64,000 nt of DNA. Source: a bacterium (lineage in GTDB: Bacteria > Zhuqueibacterota > Zhuqueibacteria > Residuimicrobiales > Krinioviventaceae). Numbering within the stretch: position 1 is the stretch's first letter; every line of letters starts with the position of its first letter. Below are positions 10,906-26,132 of this stretch, one piece after another. The position numbers were made by a program, and so were the translations under genes. The notes under the pieces were generated by a model that saw nothing but the letters and a program-made list of their open reading frames with translations, was not told the origin of the DNA and did not search any database. Location of the stretch: assembly GCA_029561455.1 (NCBI GenBank), contig JAKQIY010000065.1, forward strand, positions 273,501-337,500. The letters are read 5' to 3'.

Positions 10906-11014
10906 GCATCCTTTCCCGCCTTTTTACATCAAATAGTTATTGTTTATTTCAACAAATTCTATTATACTTGATCAAGATATCCCGCACTATCCTGATCTAA
11001 AAATCGAGAGATTT

Positions 11015-12451
11015 ATGAAAAGACAATCGTTCAAATGGATACTCTTGCTTTTCTCCGTAGCGCTGTTCCTCATTGCACCAATCCTCCTGCTCATTCCGCG
11101 ACCAGCCAAGCAATCCGATCCATGGAGTAACCTGCCAACGCGGCCAATCCACACCAATCATGCGGATTTGATCAAAGGAGAGTTTGCCGACGGTTCTGCC
11201 GTCACCCGGCGCTGCCTGGAATGCCACGAGGATGCCGCTGTACAGATCATGAAAACTTCGCACTGGACCTGGGAAAGCGAGCCGGTCTCCATTATGGGTC
11301 ACCCCAAACCGGTGATACTGGGGAAAAAGAATGCCATCAATAATTTTTGCATTGGTATTACATCCAACTGGCCGCCCTGCACTGCCTGCCACGCCGGCTA
11401 TGGCTGGGCCGACAACAGTTTTGATTTCGGCAATCACGAAAATGTCGATTGCCTGGTGTGTCACGACGGCTCTGGTCAGTATGTCAAGGGCAATGCCGGC
11501 TATCCGGCGGAAGGCGTCGACCTGGTTGCTGCAGCCAGGAGCGTAAAAATTGCCACCCGCGATAACTGCGGCGGGTGTCATTTCCGCGGCGGCGGCGGCG
11601 ACGCCGTCAAGCATGGCGATCTCGACGGCAGCCTCTACTTTCCTTCGGAACGCATCGATGTGCACATGGGCAAACACAATTTTATTTGCACCGATTGCCA
11701 CGTCACCCGCAATCACGATATTAAAGGCCGTTCCATTTCGGTCAGTTTTCATGCCCAAAACCAGGTCTATTGCACGGACTGCCATGACAAAAACCTGCAT
11801 GCAGACGAGCGTATTACTGCCCACGTATCGACCGTTGCCTGCCAAACCTGCCATATCCCGGAGGCGGCTCTAAAAGAGGCTACCAAAATGCACTGGGACT
11901 GGTCGGCAGCCGGTCAGGATTTACCCGAAGACACCCACGAGTATTTAAAAATCAAAGGCCGGTTCGTTTATGCTAAAAATATCCAGCCGGAGTACTTTTG
12001 GTACAACGGCTCGGCCACACATTACATTCTTGGCGACAAAATCGATCCCGACGAACCGACCATGCTCAATCCACCAAATGGCGATATAAACGACCGTAAT
12101 GCCAGGATATTTCCCTTCAAGGTCCATACCGCTAAGCAGATATTTGATGCGCAATACAATTACCTGCTCGTTCCTAAAACCTACGGCAAAGGCGGCTTTT
12201 GGACCGAGTTTGACTGGAATCAGGCGGCAAAGCTGGGCTCTGCCGATACCGGCCTGCCCTATAGCGGTCATTTTGGCTTTGTCTCAACGGTCATGTTCTG
12301 GCCAATTACTCACATGGTGGCGACCAAAGAAAAAGCCTTGCAATGTATAGACTGCCACAGCGACACTCAAAAATCCCGCATGGATTGGACCGCTCTGGGT
12401 TACGACGGCGATCCAATGTTCCGCGGCGGCAGAAAAACCAGTAAATTATAA
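11015..12451 (+). CDS. Octahaem c-type cytochrome, tetrathionate reductase (OTR) family
   Basis: A 478-residue membrane-anchored cytochrome with eight CxxCH haem sites in order: CLECH, CTACH, CLVCH, CGGCH, CTDCH, CTDCH, CQTCH and CIDCH. The N-terminal hydrophobic helix (about residues 8-28) is an uncleaved anchor or signal. The segment MKTSHWTWE after the first haem and the eight-haem count match the octahaem tetrathionate reductase family known from Shewanella, which in vitro reduces tetrathionate and also nitrite and hydroxylamine. The physiological substrate here is inferred from neighbours linked to sulfur. The frame could begin 25 codons earlier, but ATG 11015 with GAGAG upstream fits the signal sequence. 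It heads a four-gene unit. Confidence 0.88.
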   Translation: MKRQSFKWILLLFSVALFLIAPILLLIPRPAKQSDPWSNLPTRPIHTNHADLIKGEFADGSAVTRRCLECHEDAAVQIMKTSHWTWESEPVSIMGHPKPVILGKKNAINNFCIGITSNWPPCTACHAGYGWADNSFDFGNHENVDCLVCHDGSGQYVKGNAGYPAEGVDLVAAARSVKIATRDNCGGCHFRGGGGDAVKHGDLDGSLYFPSERIDVHMGKHNFICTDCHVTRNHDIKGRSISVSFHAQNQVYCTDCHDKNLHADERITAHVSTVACQTCHIPEAALKEATKMHWDWSAAGQDLPEDTHEYLKIKGRFVYAKNIQPEYFWYNGSATHYILGDKIDPDEPTMLNPPNGDINDRNARIFPFKVHTAKQIFDAQYNYLLVPKTYGKGGFWTEFDWNQAAKLGSADTGLPYSGHFGFVSTVMFWPITHMVATKEKALQCIDCHSDTQKSRMDWTALGYDGDPMFRGGRKTSKL

Positions 12452-12465
12452 TAAAGGTGGCCTGG

Positions 12466-15102
12466 ATGATGAAACGATATAACCTGTTATTCCCGGTTCT
12501 ATTGGGCGCAATCTTGTTTGCCCAGTGTTTATTTGCCCAACCTCAATCCATGCACCCGGCGTTCCCGCTGCTGGACGGCAACGGTAAAAACGTACTACAA
12601 TCCGCTCAACCGGTCTCAACCATGCTGACCTGTGGCAACTGCCACGACACCCGCTATATCGAATCCCACAGCGGGCATGTTGCCTTTGGCCTGTTTCCGC
12701 TCAATACCCAGGATTCCACCGCATCGCCGCAACACTGGAACCGGACGCTCTACAACTTACTAACAATGAACATGAAAAACCCCGCTACCGGCAGCGTTGC
12801 CAATCAGCTCATGAGCTACGGCGCCAGACACGTTGGCGGCGGCATGGCAGTGTACAGCTCTACAGGGCAACGTCTCGATAATATTCCTGCGCAAACCGAC
12901 AACCCCGAAACCTCATATTGGGACATGAACGCCGGGCAGATCGCTGCCTGGAACTGGCGCGAGTCCGGTGTGGTAGAAATGAATTGCTTTATCTGCCATA
13001 TTCCGGTAATAGATAACCAGGCCCGCCAGGCTGAACTTGCCGCCGGTCGTTTCGCCTGGGCAAACACAGCCACCCTGGCGCGCGCCGGCATTGTAAATAA
13101 AACCGCGGTTGGATTCGCTTATAACAAAACCAGTTTTCTGGCCGACGGCTCGGTCGATCCGGACAAAATACGCATCAGCGATCCCGGCAATGATAACTGC
13201 GGCAGTTGCCACGGCATTGTTCACAATGCCGCCACCGATATTCTCATCTCGCCGGGCTGCAATGCCGCGCAATGGGCAACTGAAACGACCGGGCAGATCA
13301 TTTCTCCGCAAAAGATCGCTGTCAGCGGCATGAACCTGGTCAATAAAAACGACCTCACCCGGTCCTGGGATATTCATGCGGAACGGCTGGTGGAGTGTGT
13401 GGACTGTCACCATTCTGCCAATAATCCCGCTTACTATCAGGAATCTGCGTCTTCCAAACCACAGCACCTGAACTTTGACGCCCGTAAAATGAGTATTCAG
13501 GAATATCTCTATCGCCCCAGCCACCAGTTTGTACGCGGGCAAAGCTGGCAATTATCAACCTCCACCCAAACCGCCAATACCATGCGGCGCTGCGAATCCT
13601 GCCACAACGCCGAATCAACCCACGCCTGGCTGCCTTATAAAAACCGGCATTTTAACGCTCTTGCCTGCGAGTCCTGCCATATTCCCAAGCTCTATTCGCC
13701 AACCCGCCGGCTTGTCGATTGGACCGTCATCAACGATCATGGGCAGCCGCGCACCGAATGCCGCAGTATCGATGGTAAATTTGGCTCGCTCAGCACGCCA
13801 ATTTATGGATACGAGCCCGTATTGCTCGGCAGGATTGAACCGGATGGCCGGCAGCGGCTGGCTCCTTATAACATTATATCTTTATGGTATTGGGTGCATG
13901 GCGCCCCGGAACAGCCGGTTACCCTGGCGATGTTGCAACAGGTATATTATCCAAACGGTTCCCCCGCCAATAATGTTCTTGCCTCACTCGACGCCAATCA
14001 AAATGGCGCCCTCGATGATGACGAATTATGCCTCGATACCCCAGCCAAAATCGACCTGGTGGCAAATAAACTGGCGGCGCTCGGCCTCAACTCGCCGCGT
14101 ATAAAAAGTGTTCTGGCGCCCTTTGCCATTCACCATAATGTTGCAGGCAGGGAATGGGTTACCCGCAATTGCGAATCATGCCATAGCAACCAGTCGCTCA
14201 TCACCAGGCCATTTCTGCTGGCTAATAATTATCCGCATAACGTACAGCCGGACCTCATCACTACCGGAATTCTTGATATGAATGGCTCATTGCAGTCGCA
14301 GGAAGGCGGCCTGGTGTTCAAGCCATCGGCGCGCGCTGCGGGTTTCTATATATTGGGCCATGACCGTGTAAACGGCGTCCAAATCGCCGGAGCCGCATTG
14401 TTCATTCTGGTATTACTCGGCATTTCTGCACATGGTTTGTTAAGGTATATTGCTTCCCGCAAACTTTTAAAAACCAAAGAAAAAACCAAACAGGTTTACA
14501 TGTACACCGCTTATGAACGTATCTGGCACTGGCTGCAAGCCCTGGCAATTATCGGACTCATCTTTACCGGTTTGATTATTCATTCGCCATCGGTGTTTGG
14601 CGTGTTGAGTTTTAGTTATGCGATATATCTCCACAACGTCCTGGCGCTTATCCTGCTCGTCAACGCCTTTTTATCAGCTTTTTACCATTTTGCCAGCGGC
14701 AAGATCAAAATGTTTCTGCCCGAACCGGAAGGATTTTTCAGTCAGGCAATCGATCAAATGTTATATTACCTGAGTGGAATCTTCAAGGGTGCACCGCACC
14801 CCTTTGAAAAGACCCATGACAAAAAGCTGAATCCGCTGCAAAAGCTCACCTACCTGGTGATCCTCAACATATTGCTACCGGTGCAGATCATTACCGGCAT
14901 ATTGATCTGGGGCGCGCAGCATTGGCCCACTATTGCTGCAAAACTGGGTGGACTTTTGTTCCTGGTTCCCTTCCACTCCCTGGTAGCCTGGTTTTTTGCC
15001 GCATTTCTTATTCTGCACATTTATCTGACCACTACCGGCCATACGGCTACTTCCAGCATTAAAGCCATGATCTCCGGATGGGAAGAAATCAAAAAAAGTT
15101 AA
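12466..15102 (+). CDS. Seven-CxxCH multihaem cytochrome fused to a cytochrome b membrane domain
   Basis: An 878-residue fusion. Residues 1-22 are a signal peptide (ending LFAQ). The periplasmic part carries seven CxxCH sites: CGNCH, CFICH, CGSCH, CVDCH, CESCH, CESCH and CESCH. Between the sixth and seventh sits a canonical 12-residue EF-hand loop, DANQNGALDDDE (509-520), likely binding calcium. The C-terminal 230 residues hold five hydrophobic helices with His residues (YERIWHWLQ, YLHNVLAL, FYHFASG, PFHSLVAW, LHIYLTTTGH), as in di-haem cytochrome b561/thiosulfate-reductase-type quinone subunits. It probably carries electrons from the quinone pool to the octahaem enzyme encoded just upstream (15 bp apart). 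An AAAGGTGG box supports ATG 12466; a GTG at 12457 is less likely. Confidence 0.87.
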   Translation: MMKRYNLLFPVLLGAILFAQCLFAQPQSMHPAFPLLDGNGKNVLQSAQPVSTMLTCGNCHDTRYIESHSGHVAFGLFPLNTQDSTASPQHWNRTLYNLLTMNMKNPATGSVANQLMSYGARHVGGGMAVYSSTGQRLDNIPAQTDNPETSYWDMNAGQIAAWNWRESGVVEMNCFICHIPVIDNQARQAELAAGRFAWANTATLARAGIVNKTAVGFAYNKTSFLADGSVDPDKIRISDPGNDNCGSCHGIVHNAATDILISPGCNAAQWATETTGQIISPQKIAVSGMNLVNKNDLTRSWDIHAERLVECVDCHHSANNPAYYQESASSKPQHLNFDARKMSIQEYLYRPSHQFVRGQSWQLSTSTQTANTMRRCESCHNAESTHAWLPYKNRHFNALACESCHIPKLYSPTRRLVDWTVINDHGQPRTECRSIDGKFGSLSTPIYGYEPVLLGRIEPDGRQRLAPYNIISLWYWVHGAPEQPVTLAMLQQVYYPNGSPANNVLASLDANQNGALDDDELCLDTPAKIDLVANKLAALGLNSPRIKSVLAPFAIHHNVAGREWVTRNCESCHSNQSLITRPFLLANNYPHNVQPDLITTGILDMNGSLQSQEGGLVFKPSARAAGFYILGHDRVNGVQIAGAALFILVLLGISAHGLLRYIASRKLLKTKEKTKQVYMYTAYERIWHWLQALAIIGLIFTGLIIHSPSVFGVLSFSYAIYLHNVLALILLVNAFLSAFYHFASGKIKMFLPEPEGFFSQAIDQMLYYLSGIFKGAPHPFEKTHDKKLNPLQKLTYLVILNILLPVQIITGILIWGAQHWPTIAAKLGGLLFLVPFHSLVAWFFAAFLILHIYLTTTGHTATSSIKAMISGWEEIKKS

Positions 15103-15122: not shown

Positions 15123-15659
15123 ATGACCGATAAAAAAACCATTGTCTCTTCGGCCAAGCCCTATATGAATCCATACCTGGCCGGAATTCTATTGGGAATC
15201 GTTTTATTTGCGGCTTTTTATTTGACCGGTAACGGTCTCGGCGCATCCGGTGGTCTGAACCGGATTGTTGTATATTTTCAAGATTTACTAGTACCAGAAC
15301 ATATCGACAGAACGCCTTATTTGCTCGATCTGGCCGGCGGCGATAAAAATCCGCTCGATAACTGGATCACTTTTATGGTCATTGGTACATTGCTGGGCGG
15401 CTTTCTCTCCGGCATGCTTCACAAACGAGTCAAACCGATGACCGCCAAAGGACCGAACATCTCGGTGCGCTCGCGCTGGCTGCTGGCATTTATTGGCGGC
15501 GCGCTGATGGGCTATGGCGCCCGTTTTGCCCGCGGCTGTACATCGGGACAAGCATTGTCCGGCGGCGCAGTGCTCTCAGCAGGCAGTTGGGCCTTTATGT
15601 TTGCAGTATTTGCCGGCGGCTATGCCCTGGCCTGGTTTGTACGTAAACTCTGGAATTAA
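15123..15659 (+). CDS. YeeE/YedE-family membrane protein (first half-size subunit)
   Basis: A 178-residue membrane protein with four hydrophobic segments and the family motif ARFARGCTSGQALSGGAV, in which C139 is the conserved cysteine. Characterised YeeE transports thiosulfate through a relay of such cysteines. This half-size form usually pairs with a second half, and the next gene (14 bp later) is exactly that. The genes upstream encode cytochromes of the tetrathionate/thiosulfate type, so uptake or handling of reduced sulfur compounds is the reasonable role. The ATG at 15123 follows a GAAGGA box. Confidence 0.85.
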   Translation: MTDKKTIVSSAKPYMNPYLAGILLGIVLFAAFYLTGNGLGASGGLNRIVVYFQDLLVPEHIDRTPYLLDLAGGDKNPLDNWITFMVIGTLLGGFLSGMLHKRVKPMTAKGPNISVRSRWLLAFIGGALMGYGARFARGCTSGQALSGGAVLSAGSWAFMFAVFAGGYALAWFVRKLWN

Positions 15660-15673
15660 TAAAGGATTGTAAT

Positions 15674-16900
15674 ATGGCTCCGTTTCCGTTAGAAATATTT
15701 TTTGGTAAATTTGGGGCTTACCTGGTTTACCTGTTTATTGGTATGGCATTTGGCGCGGTGCTGGAAATGGCGGGATTCGCTCATTCTCCCAAACTCGCCG
15801 CCCAGTTCTATTTTAAAGATATGACGGTTCTCAAGGTCATGTTCACCGCCATCGTCGTCGCTATGACGCTGATAGTCCTCGCTTCCGGCCTGCAGTTGCT
15901 CGATTTTTCGAGACTTTGGGTCAATCCCACCTACCTGTGGCCGGGCATCATTGGCGGCTTGATCATGGGTTTGGGATTCATCATCGGCGGGTTCTGCCCC
16001 GGCACCTCGCTGGTCGCCCTAGCCACCTTGCGTATCGACGGCCTGTTCTTTTCTCTCGGCGTACTGACAGGTATTTTCTTCTTTGGCGAGACGGTAGACA
16101 GCTTTGCCCGATACTGGAATTCATCCTACCTGGGCCGATTGACTATACCGGACTGGCTGGGACTCGGTGCCGGACCGGTTGTGGTTATCATCGTTCTCAT
16201 GGCTTTGTTCATGTTTTGGGGCGGCGAACAATTGGAAAAAAAATTCGGCAACCTCAATCCACCTGCCCCGAAATGGAAACTCCCTGCCGCCGCAGTTTTA
16301 TTGCTGGCTGCAATTTTAACCGTTTTTATCGGCCAGCCGTCGGCTATGGATAAATGGAACAAGATCGCTCCGCAAAAAGAAGCAGCACTCCTGGAACGTG
16401 AAATCCAGATACACCCCGGAGAATTATTGTCTCTAATGAATGACGAGACTAAAAACCTGGTGATGCTGGATATGCGCCCGGAAACAGATTATAATATATT
16501 TCATCTCCGCGATGCTAAACGAATTACAAATGAAGAATTATCGAACCTGGCAATAGATTTGCTCAACGAACCGGCCAACACGGTCATCGTTCTAATGAGC
16601 AATGATGAAGAACCGGCAACCACCGCCTGGAAAATTCTCACCGCCTCCAGCGTACCCAATATCTATATTTTGGAAGGCGGTATAAATTACTGGCTGGATA
16701 TTTTTAAAAATAATGAATTCACCAAATCCTGGGATCCGCAGGCAAGTCGCAACGAAGTACTGACGCATTCTTTTCCGGCAGCCCTGGGCTATCGACATAT
16801 TGCCGCCGACCCGGATTATGATAATTTAAAAGATAAACTACAATACACCCCCAAAGTGAAACTGGTCACCAAAGTGCGCCGTCAGGGTGGCTGCGGATAA
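15674..16900 (+). CDS. YeeE/YedE membrane domain fused to a rhodanese-like domain with GGCG tail
   Basis: A 408-residue protein. Residues 1-221 contain about six hydrophobic helices with the YeeE/YedE motif GGFCPGTSLVALATLR (C108). Residues about 245-345 form a rhodanese-like fold (MLDMRPETDYNIFHLRDAKR; ILEGGINYWL). The loop where active rhodaneses hold the persulfide cysteine reads VIVLMSNDEEPATTAW, so the catalytic Cys is absent and the domain is probably non-catalytic. About 60 residues further the protein ends in RRQGGCG, placing a lone cysteine (C407) one residue from the end. SoxY sulfur carriers end in a similar GGCGG swinging arm, so this tail may carry a sulfur adduct; that is inference. 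Last gene of the unit, followed by the hairpin at 16952-16985. Confidence 0.85.
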   Translation: MAPFPLEIFFGKFGAYLVYLFIGMAFGAVLEMAGFAHSPKLAAQFYFKDMTVLKVMFTAIVVAMTLIVLASGLQLLDFSRLWVNPTYLWPGIIGGLIMGLGFIIGGFCPGTSLVALATLRIDGLFFSLGVLTGIFFFGETVDSFARYWNSSYLGRLTIPDWLGLGAGPVVVIIVLMALFMFWGGEQLEKKFGNLNPPAPKWKLPAAAVLLLAAILTVFIGQPSAMDKWNKIAPQKEAALLEREIQIHPGELLSLMNDETKNLVMLDMRPETDYNIFHLRDAKRITNEELSNLAIDLLNEPANTVIVLMSNDEEPATTAWKILTASSVPNIYILEGGINYWLDIFKNNEFTKSWDPQASRNEVLTHSFPAALGYRHIAADPDYDNLKDKLQYTPKVKLVTKVRRQGGCG

Positions 16901-21027: not shown

Positions 21028-22014
21028 TTATCCGAATGGAGCTATAATATAAACATTTTTAAATACTTTTTCAATCCGCTTTATTTCGCTCTGCAAAAAC
21101 AACAGTTTGACGTTAGGCCCGGCATCGATGGTAAAATAGACCTCAACATTTTGCTCCCGCAATTCCCACACATGTTTAAAAATGGCGATTGTTTCCGGCA
21201 GCCAATACAGCACCGGCGGCCATGCATCCAGCATGGTGGCGTGCATAGCCAAAGCGTTAGATTCCGCGGTTTTGCCCAAAAGCGCAAAATCCTTTTCACG
21301 GATAGCGGTTTTTAAGGCAAGCAGGTCTTTTTCTACTTTACCCGGCCATTGTTTGTAGAGTAGCGAAGTCTCTGTCGTCCGGTTCATGGCGTCGCGGGAG
21401 CTGTGCGGTTTTTCCTTTTCAGTCAACATAACAACGCCCAGCCGCATTTCCGGCCAGGAATCGGGCAGGGGTTCGGCATAGCTGTCCATACCGTCGGTGA
21501 GTTCGCCGGCCCGCCATTCCACAAAACCGTTATACAAAGACCGGCAGGCGCTGCCGCTGCCCAGCCTGGCGAGGATGGACAAGCTTTTGGAATCAATATT
21601 CAATTGTAATAACTCCCGCAGAGCGCAAACCAATGCGGCAAACCCGGACGCCGAAGACGCCAGACCCGCGCCGGTGGGAATTGTGTTAATGGTTTCGACC
21701 TGAAAAAACCGGCCGGGCAATCGAAACAGGTCTAAAAATTCCGTCAAGCGCCGGGCAAAAGAGCCAGCGCCGTCAACTCGTTGTCCATTAAGGGTGATTA
21801 TATCCTGTTCTTCAGTTAATGACAACACCGTTTCCGTGCCGAGTGCCCCCAGCGAAACCGATAAACTGGAGGTAATCGGCAGGTTAAGCTCTTTATCGCG
21901 TTTACCCCAATATTTACACAAAGCAATATTGGCTGGGGCAAACGCCTTGCCCTGCGGACGAATACTGCGTTCTTCAATGTGCACCAGTTTTTTTACAATT
22001 TCTGCTCTAGTCAA
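21028..22014 (-). CDS. mvaD: Diphosphomevalonate decarboxylase
   Basis: A 328-residue GHMP-superfamily enzyme that decarboxylates mevalonate diphosphate to isopentenyl diphosphate using ATP. Diagnostic text: FAPANIALCKYWGKRD, the phosphate loop IPTGAGLASSASGFAALV, GSGSACRSLYNGFVEW, MHATMLDAWPPVLYW and the catalytic-Asp segment TIDAGPNVKLL. The start is a TTG at 22014 that overlaps the previous gene by 8 nt, with CAGGG upstream; no ATG is available before the conserved N-terminus. It is the sixth gene in a seven-gene operon. Confidence 0.92.
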   Translation of the reverse strand: MTRAEIVKKLVHIEERSIRPQGKAFAPANIALCKYWGKRDKELNLPITSSLSVSLGALGTETVLSLTEEQDIITLNGQRVDGAGSFARRLTEFLDLFRLPGRFFQVETINTIPTGAGLASSASGFAALVCALRELLQLNIDSKSLSILARLGSGSACRSLYNGFVEWRAGELTDGMDSYAEPLPDSWPEMRLGVVMLTEKEKPHSSRDAMNRTTETSLLYKQWPGKVEKDLLALKTAIREKDFALLGKTAESNALAMHATMLDAWPPVLYWLPETIAIFKHVWELREQNVEVYFTIDAGPNVKLLFLQSEIKRIEKVFKNVYIIAPFG

Positions 22015-22933
22015 TTGATAGCCCTGTTTCTGAAAATTCCAAAGGCAGCACTTGCCAGGGTACCCCTGCGCCGGTCAATTTACCCACGCCGATCACACAA
22101 TCGCCCAGACCGGAACCGGAAATTTTGGAACCGGTGATACCCGGTTCAGTGCGCAGGCGATAATTGATCTCGGCGAGCAAATAATTACTAACGCCAATCG
22201 CGTCCATCAGACCCTGGTTGATACTAAACAATTCGCCCAAATATTTATAATCTGCTCTTTCAATAGCTTCCGTTGCAGCGGTCACGCTTTTATCCATTAA
22301 ATCATAAATTCCTGAAAACAATTCCGGGGAGCGGTTATATTTCTCTTCCACAATACCAATCACTTTGGCAGTCGCCAGCTTGCTACCGGAATTGATCACA
22401 GTTAGTGGAAAATCGGTTCCAATCTTTTTTACCGACTGTGGCTCTTTTTGATAACAAAGAATGCCGCCATACACACTGGCAGCCAGGTCCGCACCGGAAC
22501 CAGCGCCCTGGACTGCTTGTATGGTCTGCATTGCCGTGTCAAATACTTTATCGGGTTTAATTTTTCGCCGGCTAAGGTTGAATATAGCACCCATTACGGC
22601 AGCGGTAACGGCGGCTGAAGAACCCAAACCTAAATCGGCGGAAAAATCCGCTTCAATTTGCATGTCCATGCCGCAGGATAAATGCTCCTGCTCTTGCTGC
22701 AACGCTGTTAAAACAAAGCGGAAGGCAGGGATGATTTCAATATTATCCAGCCAGGTGCTGTATTCGCCCAGCGCTGAAGTTAAATGAATTTTACTGTCCT
22801 TTCTTGCCTTGCAGGTAACGGCAATACGCCGGTTCACTGCGCCCACCAGCGCTTTACGCCCATGTAGAACCGCATGTTCTCCCAACAGCATTAATTTGCC
22901 GGGCGCTGATACCCGGAACGATTCTCGCCCCAT
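22007..22933 (-). CDS. mvaK2: GHMP kinase, probable phosphomevalonate kinase
   Basis: A 308-residue GHMP kinase. The N-terminal substrate segment is SAPGKLMLLGEHAVLHG, the ATP loop LGLGSSAAVTAAV, the catalytic-Asp segment GAGSGADLAASVYGG, and motif 3 is KISGSGLGDCVIG. The N-terminus looks like mevalonate kinase, but the GSGxDxAxxxYGG segment is the form seen in phosphomevalonate kinases. With a clear mevalonate kinase encoded just upstream and a decarboxylase just downstream, phosphorylation of mevalonate 5-phosphate is the most economical role. A second mevalonate kinase or a different phospho-branch cannot be excluded. Its start overlaps the upstream gene by 80 nt; AAAGGGAG precedes the ATG. 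Confidence 0.75.
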   Translation of the reverse strand: MGRESFRVSAPGKLMLLGEHAVLHGRKALVGAVNRRIAVTCKARKDSKIHLTSALGEYSTWLDNIEIIPAFRFVLTALQQEQEHLSCGMDMQIEADFSADLGLGSSAAVTAAVMGAIFNLSRRKIKPDKVFDTAMQTIQAVQGAGSGADLAASVYGGILCYQKEPQSVKKIGTDFPLTVINSGSKLATAKVIGIVEEKYNRSPELFSGIYDLMDKSVTAATEAIERADYKYLGELFSINQGLMDAIGVSNYLLAEINYRLRTEPGITGSKISGSGLGDCVIGVGKLTGAGVPWQVLPLEFSETGLSID

Positions 22934-23918
22934 TTTTTTCTCCCTTTATTGATAATACTTTGTATCCAAAGTCAGCGCTGCTTGTTTCAACATTTTCCTC
23001 ACAAAGCGCCAGCACAATACCCGCCTGTTCTCCTTTTACCGAACCAGCGCCGGATATTTTTCCCGCTCCACCCTGCTTTTCCATTCCGGCTATGAAATGT
23101 TGCACCATCTCCGGCACTACGCCAATTGTACATAATAAACGATGATTTTCTCTCATACATCGTGTTAATTCGCTTTTATTCCTGTCTGAACACGCTTGTT
23201 CAAATGCATCGGTTACGGCTTGAAAATCCTTCCAGATAGAGCTGTTGCGGAACCATTGCGCTACCTGCGCCACACTCTCGCCTGTCGACGCTGCCGGGGC
23301 GCCGGTATTGACAATGGTAAATGGAAAATCCGGCATTGGCAAACGGTGCGGCTGTTTATGCCGGAACCGGCAAAAACCGCCATGCAGGGCAATATAGGGG
23401 TCCACCCCGCTGGAATGGCCATGCTGTAAATTTTCCGTTTCAAGCGCCAGGTCATAAAATATTTCCGGTGTATCCGATATATTAAAATATGCCGCCAGCG
23501 CTGTGATCAGGCTGACGATGGTTGCCGCCGAAGAACCCATGCCGCAGCCGGCCGGCACTGTCGATTTGATTGTTATAGTTAACCCGGCAGGGATTTTTAC
23601 AGCACACCTGTCGAGCATTGAAATATAAACATAAACAAACAAATCCACCGGCGTTGTAACGATCTCGGTTACATTCAGCCGGCCCTGCGCGAATCGTTCA
23701 TAGTTATATCGTAATAACCGGTACCTGTCGCGTATTTCGTCCATTGTAAAAGAAGCAATACTGTGCAAATCCGGCAATGAAAATACTATCTTTTGCTCGT
23801 CGGCGATGTCGATTTGGGCCGACGAATATTCGTTCACCGCCATGACCAGGGCAGAATTGCCATAGACAACGGCATGTTCCCCGCTTAGAATAATTTTACC
23901 GGGCGCTATCGCTTTCAA
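22854..23918 (-). CDS. mvk: Mevalonate kinase
   Basis: A 354-residue GHMP kinase that phosphorylates mevalonate at C5. Motifs: IAPGKIILSGEHAVVYG at the N-terminus, ATP loop VPAGCGMGSSAATIVSL, catalytic-Asp segment GHSSGVDPYIALHGGF, and the Gly-rich motif GKISGAGSVKGEQAG. The family-like sequence ends near residue 335; the last 20 residues (after KNGARI) are read through the start of the next gene, an 80-nt overlap on a different frame. This may be a harmless extension or the trace of a lost stop codon. The start overlaps the HMG-CoA synthase gene by 23 nt, which indicates translational coupling. Confidence 0.9.
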   Translation of the reverse strand: MKAIAPGKIILSGEHAVVYGNSALVMAVNEYSSAQIDIADEQKIVFSLPDLHSIASFTMDEIRDRYRLLRYNYERFAQGRLNVTEIVTTPVDLFVYVYISMLDRCAVKIPAGLTITIKSTVPAGCGMGSSAATIVSLITALAAYFNISDTPEIFYDLALETENLQHGHSSGVDPYIALHGGFCRFRHKQPHRLPMPDFPFTIVNTGAPAASTGESVAQVAQWFRNSSIWKDFQAVTDAFEQACSDRNKSELTRCMRENHRLLCTIGVVPEMVQHFIAGMEKQGGAGKISGAGSVKGEQAGIVLALCEENVETSSADFGYKVLSIKGEKNGARIVPGISARQINAVGRTCGSTWA

Positions 23919-25083
23919 GTTTCTGGTATATCCGTTTGTGCTCTTTTAAACCGGCGAACCGGAACAACCCGGTTTTGTTCCTGGGGGTTAAATACTCACC
24001 GCCGTCCTGCGGTATAGAGTATAAATAGAATTTTTTATATTCTTCATAGTTTAATTCTGTCCGGTTCTGCAAAAAGGCGCGGTGCTGTTCGGCAAGCAGG
24101 TACTGCTGATAACCCGGTAAAACCTGGCCGCTAAAAAACTCGCCAACACAGCCGGAGCCATAACTGAAAAATCCGATCTTTTTCCCTGCCAAATCCTGCG
24201 CCGAGTTTTCCAACAGCGCCATCAGCCCAATATACATAGAAGCAGCATACGTGTTGCCGATAATTTTTATATACTGCAAGGTTTCGTTAATTTGCCCTAG
24301 CAAATACTCTTCGCTAAAATCTTCCCGTCCGATATGTTTGGCCAGGTGGAAATGGGCCTTTTCGCCCATACGGCTGAAAGGTAAATGATAACAGAACCGA
24401 TAAAAATCATCAAACCGGCTGCCCGACCGGTCGGTATATTGCTGCCAGGCTTCGTATAACGATTTCAGATACATTTTTATGGAAAATTTCCCGTCGACAA
24501 ACGCTTCTTCACGGTAATTGGGCCGCCAGAAATCCATAACATCTTCGGTATAAATACCGGTTTCCTGGTCAAAAGCAATAATTTTAGGTTGTGAGGAAAG
24601 CACCATTGCCACGGCGCCGGCGCCCTGGGTTGGTTCCCCGGCGCTGCCCAAGCCATAACGGGCGATATCCGCAGCAACCAGCAACACCTTGCGATCCGGG
24701 TGCAACAACAGGTATGGCAGCGCCAGTTGAATACCGGCCGCTGCGCTGTAACATGCTTGTTTAACTTCCAGCACCCGGCAATTGCGGCTCAACCCCAGCA
24801 TGCTGTGTACATAGATACCGGCAGATTTGGATTGATCAATGCCGGATTCGGTGGCAAAAATGACCGTATCGATCTTTTCCGCATCTACCTTTTGAATGAC
24901 CTGGTAAGCGGCGTTGGCAGCCAGGGTAACGACATCTTCATCCGGGGGTGGCGCCGCCATTTTCTCCTGGCCAATGCCATGATAGAATTTATCTACCGGT
25001 GTTTGCCGTTCTTCCGCCAGATTCTTTAAATCAAAAAAATAGTGAGATGTATAAAAACTTATTGCTTCAATACCCGCTTTCAT
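23896..25083 (-). CDS. mvaS: Hydroxymethylglutaryl-CoA synthase
   Basis: A 395-residue thiolase-superfamily enzyme that condenses acetyl-CoA with acetoacetyl-CoA to HMG-CoA. The catalytic cysteine lies in VLEVKQACYSAAAGIQLA, the general-base Glu in PPPDEDVVTLA, and the His in FCYHLPFSRMGEKAHF. These are the bacterial HMGS signatures. The ATG at 25083 is chosen because AAAGGGAG lies five bases upstream; a GTG 15 bases earlier would place that box inside the gene. It begins 11 bp after the end of the isomerase gene. Confidence 0.94.
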   Translation of the reverse strand: MKAGIEAISFYTSHYFFDLKNLAEERQTPVDKFYHGIGQEKMAAPPPDEDVVTLAANAAYQVIQKVDAEKIDTVIFATESGIDQSKSAGIYVHSMLGLSRNCRVLEVKQACYSAAAGIQLALPYLLLHPDRKVLLVAADIARYGLGSAGEPTQGAGAVAMVLSSQPKIIAFDQETGIYTEDVMDFWRPNYREEAFVDGKFSIKMYLKSLYEAWQQYTDRSGSRFDDFYRFCYHLPFSRMGEKAHFHLAKHIGREDFSEEYLLGQINETLQYIKIIGNTYAASMYIGLMALLENSAQDLAGKKIGFFSYGSGCVGEFFSGQVLPGYQQYLLAEQHRAFLQNRTELNYEEYKKFYLYSIPQDGGEYLTPRNKTGLFRFAGLKEHKRIYQKLESDSAR

Positions 25084-25094
25084 TGTCTCCCTTT

Positions 25095-26132
25095 TCACAA
25101 GCCTTCATCCCATTTGAGTATTAATTTTTTATTATTCTGCATTGATTTTACATTTTTCACCCCGGTCAAAAACATGGCAACCTTGAATTCCTGCTTCAGT
25201 TTCTCGATAACGCTAATCACCGCCTCGGCAGATTCCATCGCCGGTTTCAAGAACGGTTTGGCAATGCCGCACAACGAAGCGCCGAGGATCACAGACTTGG
25301 CCATATCTACACCGCTGCGAATGCCTCCCGAAGCAATAACCGTTATTCTCTGCTTGAATTTTTCCAGCATGGTCAAAGCCAGCGGGGTGGGTATGCCCCA
25401 GTCCTGAAACTGGGTACCCAGTCCATAATTGTTGTTACTGCGGAATTCCTCGATCAGGCTCCAGGAGGTTCCGCCAGCCCCGGCAACATCGATATAATGA
25501 ATATTATTTTGCATCAACAATTCTACATCATCATCCGCAATGCCGGCGCCAACTTCTTTGATAATGACCGGGCAGGATAACTGTTCCGCAATTGCACCGA
25601 TTTTTCCGGCCAAACCGGAAAAATCGACATTGCCTTCCGGCTGGATTGCTTCCTGCAGCGGGTTCAGATGCAGGTACAAGGCATCGGCTGCCACCGCATG
25701 CACAGCTTCGCGGCATTCGCCAAGTCCGAACCCGTAATTTAATTGTACGGCGCCAAGGTTCGCGAATAACAAAGCATTTGGCGCATAGCGGCGAATAGCA
25801 AAACTGTCGCGCGCACCTGGACTGCTGAACATAACCCGCTGTGACCCGACGCCCATTGCCACACCGGTTTCCTGCGCCGCCAGGGCGCAATTCCGGTTTA
25901 TTTTCGCTACCATTTCATTGTCACCACCGGTCATGGATGAAATGAGCAATGGAAAAGATAATTTTTTTCGCATGAACTCTATACCGGTATCGATATCGTT
26001 GAGATTGATTTCCGGCAGGGCGCGGTGTTTGAGTATAATATTATCGAAATAATTTTTATCCCGGTCAATTCCCTCCCGGGAGTTTATGATCTGTATATGT
26101 TCGGTTTTGCGGACATTATTCAAATCGTGCAT
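25095..26132 (-). CDS. fni: Isopentenyl-diphosphate delta-isomerase, type 2 (FMN)
   Basis: A 345-residue TIM-barrel flavoenzyme that interconverts IPP and DMAPP using reduced FMN. Recognisable segments are HRALPEINLNDIDTG, the loop ISSMTGGDNEMV, VGSQRVMF, AVQLNYGFGLGECREA, VIIKEVGAGI and the FMN phosphate site IASGGIRSGVDMAKS. The start codon shares one base with the stop of HMG-CoA reductase (TAATG), so translation is coupled. No thiolase gene is present in the window; acetoacetyl-CoA must come from elsewhere. Confidence 0.95.
   Translation of the reverse strand: MHDLNNVRKTEHIQIINSREGIDRDKNYFDNIILKHRALPEINLNDIDTGIEFMRKKLSFPLLISSMTGGDNEMVAKINRNCALAAQETGVAMGVGSQRVMFSSPGARDSFAIRRYAPNALLFANLGAVQLNYGFGLGECREAVHAVAADALYLHLNPLQEAIQPEGNVDFSGLAGKIGAIAEQLSCPVIIKEVGAGIADDDVELLMQNNIHYIDVAGAGGTSWSLIEEFRSNNNYGLGTQFQDWGIPTPLALTMLEKFKQRITVIASGGIRSGVDMAKSVILGASLCGIAKPFLKPAMESAEAVISVIEKLKQEFKVAMFLTGVKNVKSMQNNKKLILKWDEGL

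Follow-up and report, generated by a model that had tools for sequence, protein, structure and literature searches.

What is the role of a terminal Gly-Gly-Cys-Gly sequence on a protein that joins part of a YeeE/YedE-type sulfur channel to a rhodanese domain lacking a catalytic cysteine? The window, i.e. the whole 64,000 nucleotide stretch of bacterial DNA that was analysed, encodes such a protein (Table 1). Its reading frame specifies 408 residues and ends CAG GGT GGC TGC GGA TAA (Q-G-G-C-G-stop), such that the C terminus reads RRQGGCG with C407 as the penultimate residue; C108 is the only other cysteine. Pfam analyses assign residues 43-189 to Sulf_transp (PF04143; 51.8 bits, cut-off 27), i.e. 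to the YeeE/YedE family, and residues 249-341 to Rhodanese (PF00581; 41.9 bits, cut-off 22.2), with the SoxY domain (PF13501) being absent among the Pfam matches of the protein at E ≤ 1. The reading frame and Pfam results confirm what a preliminary description had read from the DNA, namely a YeeE motif with C108, an active-site loop (MSNDEEPA) without a cysteine, and the RRQGGCG end. The top 50 Foldseek matches listed for the predicted structure are to rhodanese folds, including that of the Sud rhodanese (1qxn), with a probability of 1.00 and E-values of just 0.005-0.03. None of these 50 is to the Spirochaeta thermophila channel StYeeE and none has E ≤ 0.001, so the YeeE assignment of the first half of the protein rests on sequence, i.e. 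on Pfam and alignment with StYeeE.

Table 1. Positions in the window of the operon genes and of the functional elements of the 408-residue protein.
Feature	Position	Strand	Basis
Octaheme c-type cytochrome (tetrathionate reductase family) with 8 CXXCH and a membrane anchor at the N terminus	10940..12451	+	TIGR04315, 564 bits
Fusion of a seven-CXXCH part with a membrane domain of cytochrome b561 type	12457..15102	+	Motifs, Pfam/NCBIfam
YeeE second half, 178 aa; C139 (codon 15537-15539) corresponds to StYeeE C293	15123..15659	+	Pfam; adjoins the gene in 77/77 loci with room
YeeE first half, extra transmembrane helix, Cys-less rhodanese and GGCG tail, 408 aa	15674..16900	+	ORF reading, Pfam, homologue alignment, AF2
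C108 codon (FCPGTS), channel cysteine corresponding to StYeeE C91; always Cys or Sec	15995..15997	+	StYeeE alignment, homologues
Sixth transmembrane helix (residues 202-219), predicted in-to-out, carrying the rhodanese outside	16277..16330	+	Loop charges, AF2
Rhodanese-like domain (residues 249-341)	16418..16696	+	Pfam, Foldseek
Rhodanese active-site loop MSNDEEPA (308-315), without Cys; N310 and E312 (nearly) invariant	16595..16618	+	Homologue alignment
Tail Gly-Gly-Cys-Gly (405-408); C407 codon 16892-16894	16886..16897	+	C or U in 134/134

The adjoining upstream ORF (15123-15659) and ORF 15674-16900 are predicted to encode the two halves of a YeeE channel with two of its three relay cysteines. 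The 178-residue upstream protein matches PF04143 (86 bits, cut-off 27), and its sole cysteine, C139, lies in a GCTSG motif. Sequence comparison pairs C108 with StYeeE C91, C139 with C293, and A36 with C22; along the path through StYeeE, C293 is the first (outer), C91 the middle and C22 the third (inner) cysteine (Ikei et al., PMC11073785). A cysteine equivalent to C22 was found in none of 80 aligned sequences, such that of the three channel cysteines of YeeE/YedE proteins the third is missing here. Scores under the TsuA NCBIfam models (NF052577/NF041049) are far below the cut-offs (18.2 and 42.2 bits versus 400; 28.2 versus 645). Since split members with one cysteine per half, i.e. PmpAB, are known, the broad YeeE/YedE assignment stands, but an assignment of TsuA function does not.

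Among 84,980 species genomes scanned, 177 relatives were identified, and 80 of these were kept; addition of 396 genomes from the class of one homologue and of 82 from the phylum of the window led to a total of 134 distinct full-length proteins, spanning 30-60% identity. Position 407 is a cysteine in 129 of these and an in-frame UGA in the other five, with no other residue being observed. Counting UGA at the cysteine codon, GGC is identical in all 134 sequences and the last glycine is present in 98%. Column identity averages 33% over residues 346-366, 0.57 over residues 381-400 and about 55% over residues 381-404, compared with 0.99 over residues 405-408; given how poorly the preceding linker is kept, conservation of the tail is far above chance. 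Relatives with ~30% identity still keep the tail cysteine (...IQGGCAID in L187, ...VLGGC in L194), and two homologues (L011 and L042) end in GGCGG, the exact SoxY motif. The GGC tail is thus a hallmark of the YeeE/rhodanese family, and the preliminary description, which had let its proposal of a sulfur-carrying arm stand or fall with conservation of the terminal GGC(G), is borne out on this point. The missing rhodanese cysteine is also a trait of the whole family: in place of the catalytic loop cysteine of active rhodaneses the window protein has SNDE, and a loop cysteine occurs in only one of the 134 homologues (L013, 502-1716; loop TICNNE), where it is possibly a relic or a regain.

The five tail UGA codons are from Anaerolineae genomes (L106, L111, L113, L125 and L126), in which the tail is encoded as GGG-UGA-GGN-stop. 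The five proteins group together in a single clade (support 0.99), with just 59-74% identity among themselves, implying that the UGA codon has been kept through a long divergence. A hairpin with a 7-bp stem and a 3-nt loop starting with G is located 12-13 nt 3' of every one of these codons, with 100% of its pairs being kept, including two compensatory pairs with changes on both sides. Published limits for bacterial SECIS elements are a loop of 3-9 nt, a G within the first two loop positions and a UGA-to-loop distance of 16-37 nt, and all five hairpins fall within them (limits from PMC13188914). For comparison, 16 of 120 Cys-type genes have some hairpin of ≥7 bp in the same zone, mostly as long terminator-like stems at other offsets. 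The tRNA-Sec was identified in four of the five genomes and SelB in three of those four; the fifth (G125) gave neither. On the criteria of an aligned UGA, a bSECIS element and the Sec machinery, these five Anaerolineae homologues, i.e. excluding the window protein, are predicted selenoproteins. A chance stop codon or sequencing error was ruled out, because the codon is in five genomes always TGA at the cysteine position, followed by glycine and a stop, with a covarying hairpin. Reading through downstream of a normal GGCG, as is possible at several loci, reflects an ordinary TGA stop, and such cases were left out of the Sec counts.

In three of the five UGA-tail genomes a UGA also takes the place of the channel cysteine codon (G[FY]UPGTS). 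Two proteins from the phylum of the window (L174 and L178, in genomes G454 and G453, respectively) have UGA at the channel cysteine and cysteine in the tail (GGCG/GGCS). A hairpin starts ~14 nt downstream of each of the channel UGAs, being SECIS-like in G454 and G453, which appear to represent a second lineage with Sec in the YeeE/rhodanese family. The window gene has cysteine at both sites, although its genome (G000) has both tRNA-Sec and SelB, and the octaheme proteins encoded by the Sec genomes lack an internal UGA. All Sec-tail genomes are in one clade, and the Cys-to-Sec swap at the tail may therefore have happened once. Separately, stand-alone YeeE first halves of ~185 residues from Anaerolineae (L208:15759-16283, L211-L230) carry UGA in place of the second cysteine (G[FY]UPGT) in 20 of 20 TGA-bearing genes fetched; in the neighbouring halves the first-cysteine site remains GCTSG, in contrast with the GUxSG of the selenoprotein catalogue.

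Selenocysteine is the more reactive selenium analogue of cysteine. A residue in a flexible tail that may be Cys or Sec and nothing else most readily suggests a nucleophile or a redox centre, and the combination of absolute constraint with Cys/Sec exchange makes it very probable that the tail residue is a reactive thiol or selenol. Lipidation of the terminal cysteine was set aside, with Sec being unexpected at a lipidation site; we know of no bacterial lipidation signal of the GGCG type.

The gene context provides the best clue to function. In the window the order is octaheme cytochrome, seven-heme/b561 fusion, YeeE second half and the 408-residue protein; the best NCBIfam match of the b-domain of the fusion, albeit below cut-off, is to thiosulfate reductase cytochrome b. 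At loci with room on the contig the operon is fixed: besides the invariable YeeE second half, a heme/cytochrome b protein is present in 70 of 71 cases, and the TIGR04315 octaheme protein is upstream in 63 of 64 and just downstream in the remaining one (64/64 together). The same operon occurs in all five Sec-tail genomes. A split form of the cassette (L200, L201 and L205; also L180-L192) comprises a PhsA-like molybdoenzyme, which at 474-483 bits falls short of the equivalog cut-off (694), as well as an Fe-S protein, NrfD, the YeeE second half, the YeeE first half, and an anchored Cys-less rhodanese ending KKK..(E/A)GC. It is this association of one module with two unrelated quinol-linked reductases, sulfur-linked by family, that is most informative. 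Elsewhere in the window, a cluster on the reverse strand (21028-26132) is by eye of a mevalonate-type isoprenoid-like kind, encoding decarboxylase/kinase-like, HMG-CoA-synthase-like and type 2 isopentenyl-diphosphate isomerase-like proteins.

On balance we favour the view that the 408-residue protein supplies one half of a two-part YeeE/YedE sulfur channel and bears its own covalent carrier outside the membrane, and we judge it somewhat better than an even prospect that the tail ferries sulfur between the YeeE pore and a respiratory reductase on the outer side, the nature of the cargo and its direction of travel being matters of inference. An alternative that we consider serious, though less likely, is that the tail Cys/Sec serves the reductase, presenting bound sulfur to the octaheme or Phs-like enzyme in the manner of Sud, with the YeeE pair feeding or draining thiosulfate independently. 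The occurrence of the cassette with two unrelated extracytoplasmic reductases and the structural match to Sud are consistent with such a role, as is the apparent lack of an import route in the window's genome: a TusA domain was absent from this genome (98.8% complete) and from G001, with controls being positive in 11 of 14 genomes, such that the usual type of cytoplasmic partner for YeeE is unavailable there. (TusA is present in two Sec genomes, G319 and G201.) A role confined to the reductase sits less well with the observations that the rhodanese is fused to a YeeE half in the main family and even when split still adjoins both YeeE halves, and that Sec occupies the tail position and the channel-cysteine position in the same proteins.

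It is also conceivable, if improbable, that the tail cysteine enters the empty rhodanese pocket, in cis or in trans, so restoring a sulfurtransferase site. The Cys-less loop does retain N310 and E312, and the tail follows the rhodanese in both fused and split forms. The AF2 model (mean pLDDT 83), however, gives the tail no confident place, residues 404-408 having pLDDT <50, indicative of flexibility, compared with good confidence for residues 367-400; further, the loops differ, being SNDE in the fused and SNGG or SEGG in the split forms. In the model only about the last eight residues look free, which, for the favoured carrier role, would limit the reach of the arm unless its partner is close.

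With respect to the side of the membrane on which the tail lies, the loop charges over the alignment are -0.6 (N terminus), +1.4 (residues 34-51), -1.0 (75-86), -1.5 (141-167), +1.8 (184-202), -1.1 (after TM6) and -9.7 (rhodanese), an alternation in the order expected with the N terminus outside. In the AF2 model the seven helices of the YeeE half extend to residue 192 and are separated from the rhodanese by an additional helix (202-219). Homologues of the split type from the same phylum have a separate rhodanese with an N-terminal signal anchor, matching in position the helix at residues 202-219, with no loop cysteine (YSN/YSE) and with a C-terminal ...GC, the cysteine being the final residue in all those examined. 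From the charge bias, the helix count and these signal-anchored split rhodaneses, we infer that the rhodanese and tail are probably outside the membrane, on the C139 side, where the thiosulfate path begins. The contrary arrangement, in which a cytoplasmic tail replaces YeeD/TusA as a 'fourth cysteine' at the inner pore exit, has a precedent in StYeeE-YeeD, in which a carrier cysteine is stationed where the pore opens to the cytoplasm (PMC11073785), and the loss of C22 together with the absence of TusA means that something may replace both. Four features nevertheless indicate an outside location, namely the charge distribution (positive inside), the added sixth helix, the marked acidity of the rhodanese, and the signal anchor that the split rhodaneses bear, and we consider a cytoplasmic tail improbable. 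Selenocysteine is uncommon in structural disulfides and the split form keeps its terminal cysteine while pairing with a molybdoenzyme and NrfD rather than multiheme cytochromes, arguing that, despite multiheme neighbours in the main family, the tail residue is very unlikely to act as a ligand to metal or heme, or to form a structural disulfide locking the protein to a cytochrome. (Sec has been proposed as a metal ligand in some other selenoproteins; PMC13188914.)

The preliminary description had made its swinging arm depend also on the tail being on the same side as the YeeE cysteines, and the predicted location agrees with this. The Cys/Sec exchange, the fixed respiratory operon and the lack of a TusA partner go beyond what that description could draw on. 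Its overall idea is in part supported, i.e. with respect to the conserved tail and to its lying on the C139 side; its suggestion that the rhodanese fold serves only for docking fits a Cys-less structural or docking domain, a property which holds across the family and the split homologues. Overall, the evidence that the tail matters is strong and that for its role moderate.

Returning to the favoured carrier role, the mechanism might operate as follows. The extra transmembrane helix after the seven helices of the YeeE half would, on the model, take the rhodanese and tail outside, where the tail thiolate or selenolate may attack the S-S bond of tetrathionate, thiosulfate or polysulfide, so that a persulfide or S-thiosulfonate is carried on the tail. 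The rhodanese body would dock or position the arm, which would swing from the octaheme reductase to the pore entrance at C139, with sulfur passing from C139 to C108. The cysteine relay of YeeE-YeeD would in this way be shifted outward, an outer carrier cysteine replacing the inner C22 and the TusA-like YeeD. The cytochrome chain that accompanies the channel in the operon is quinol-linked and ends in the octaheme cytochrome of the tetrathionate reductase family. On chemical grounds, reduction of tetrathionate is of its S-S bond, and a Cys-S-SSO3 adduct is half of a tetrathionate; such a reductase could therefore act on the loaded arm. Import is favoured because this is the known direction of YeeE, the alternative being export of sulfur to the reductase. 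Import would, however, have no known cytoplasmic acceptor here, neither TusA nor a third cysteine being present, which is a reason for caution; the pore may function in another way.

More broadly, and tentatively, the results may point to a widespread, undescribed respiratory module in which an outer, membrane-tethered Cys/Sec arm shuttles covalent sulfur between a quinol-driven reductase, of octaheme or Phs type, and a YeeE pore, extending the relay outward and dispensing with YeeD/TusA. If so, transport and respiration of one sulfur compound would be physically coupled. The channel-plus-arm pair, which accompanies an octaheme 'tetrathionate reductase family' cytochrome at every locus with room, is likely a missing component of the systems of these cytochromes. 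That the same cassette occurs with a Phs/Psr-like enzyme suggests that the arm is a feature of sulfur respiration and not of any single enzyme. Because Cys and Sec replace one another naturally, the mechanism can be tested directly via a single residue.

We found no description in the open-licence literature of a YeeE-rhodanese-octaheme operon, or of a rhodanese with a terminal Cys or Sec. Geobacter ExtI was considered as a YeeE/rhodanese relative and dropped, being described as an outer-membrane porin (PMC5877670). One close comparison is with StYeeE/TsuA (PDB 6LEO/8K1R) and YeeD: the fold family (PF04143) is the same, C139 and C108 are the counterparts of C293 and C91, and in both systems a carrier cysteine lies beyond the channel. 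The present system differs in its two halves, the missing third cysteine, the extra transmembrane helix and the outer rhodanese with its GGC(G)/U tail, and in having no cytoplasmic TusA-like YeeD. PmpA and PmpB similarly are separate YeeE halves with one conserved cysteine each (PMC11582611), but are of ~130 residues each, are without rhodanese or tail, and have other gene surroundings. The YTD cluster of sulfur disproportionators shares a YeeE-type gene in a sulfur-energy context; it contains TusA, a DsrE-like and two other proteins (PMC13047784), none of which adjoins the gene for the 408-residue protein, and the window has no adjacent TusA and DsrE-like genes. SoxY (as SoxYZ) resembles the tail in that its C-terminal cysteine, flanked by glycines, sits on a flexible arm and acts extracytoplasmically (PMC6067878). 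The SoxY likeness noted in the preliminary description applies to the arm only: the GGC(G) arm is universal in the family, a SoxY domain is lacking, and the 408-residue protein is tethered to a membrane channel and has reductive-type partners, such that the likeness is one of functional analogy. (A SoxY search of the genomes checked gave no match but, being without a positive control, carries no weight.) Sud, the polysulfide-sulfur transferase of Wolinella succinogenes, likewise has an extracytoplasmic rhodanese fold serving a quinol-linked sulfur reductase; Sud, which is located outside the cytoplasm, feeds polysulfide reductase. Sud employs a loop cysteine, whereas here the cysteine is in the tail, the loop is Cys-less and the protein is membrane-bound. 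Finally, a 2026 selenoprotein catalogue already includes YeeE/YedE (GUxSG), rhodanese forms 1-5 and the TIGR04315 octaheme protein, but none of its entries has a C-terminal GGU(G) Sec, and the channel Sec observed here is at UPGT rather than GUxSG (PMC13188914); the list of selenoproteins would gain both a C-terminal GGUG form and a form with Sec at the second YeeE cysteine.
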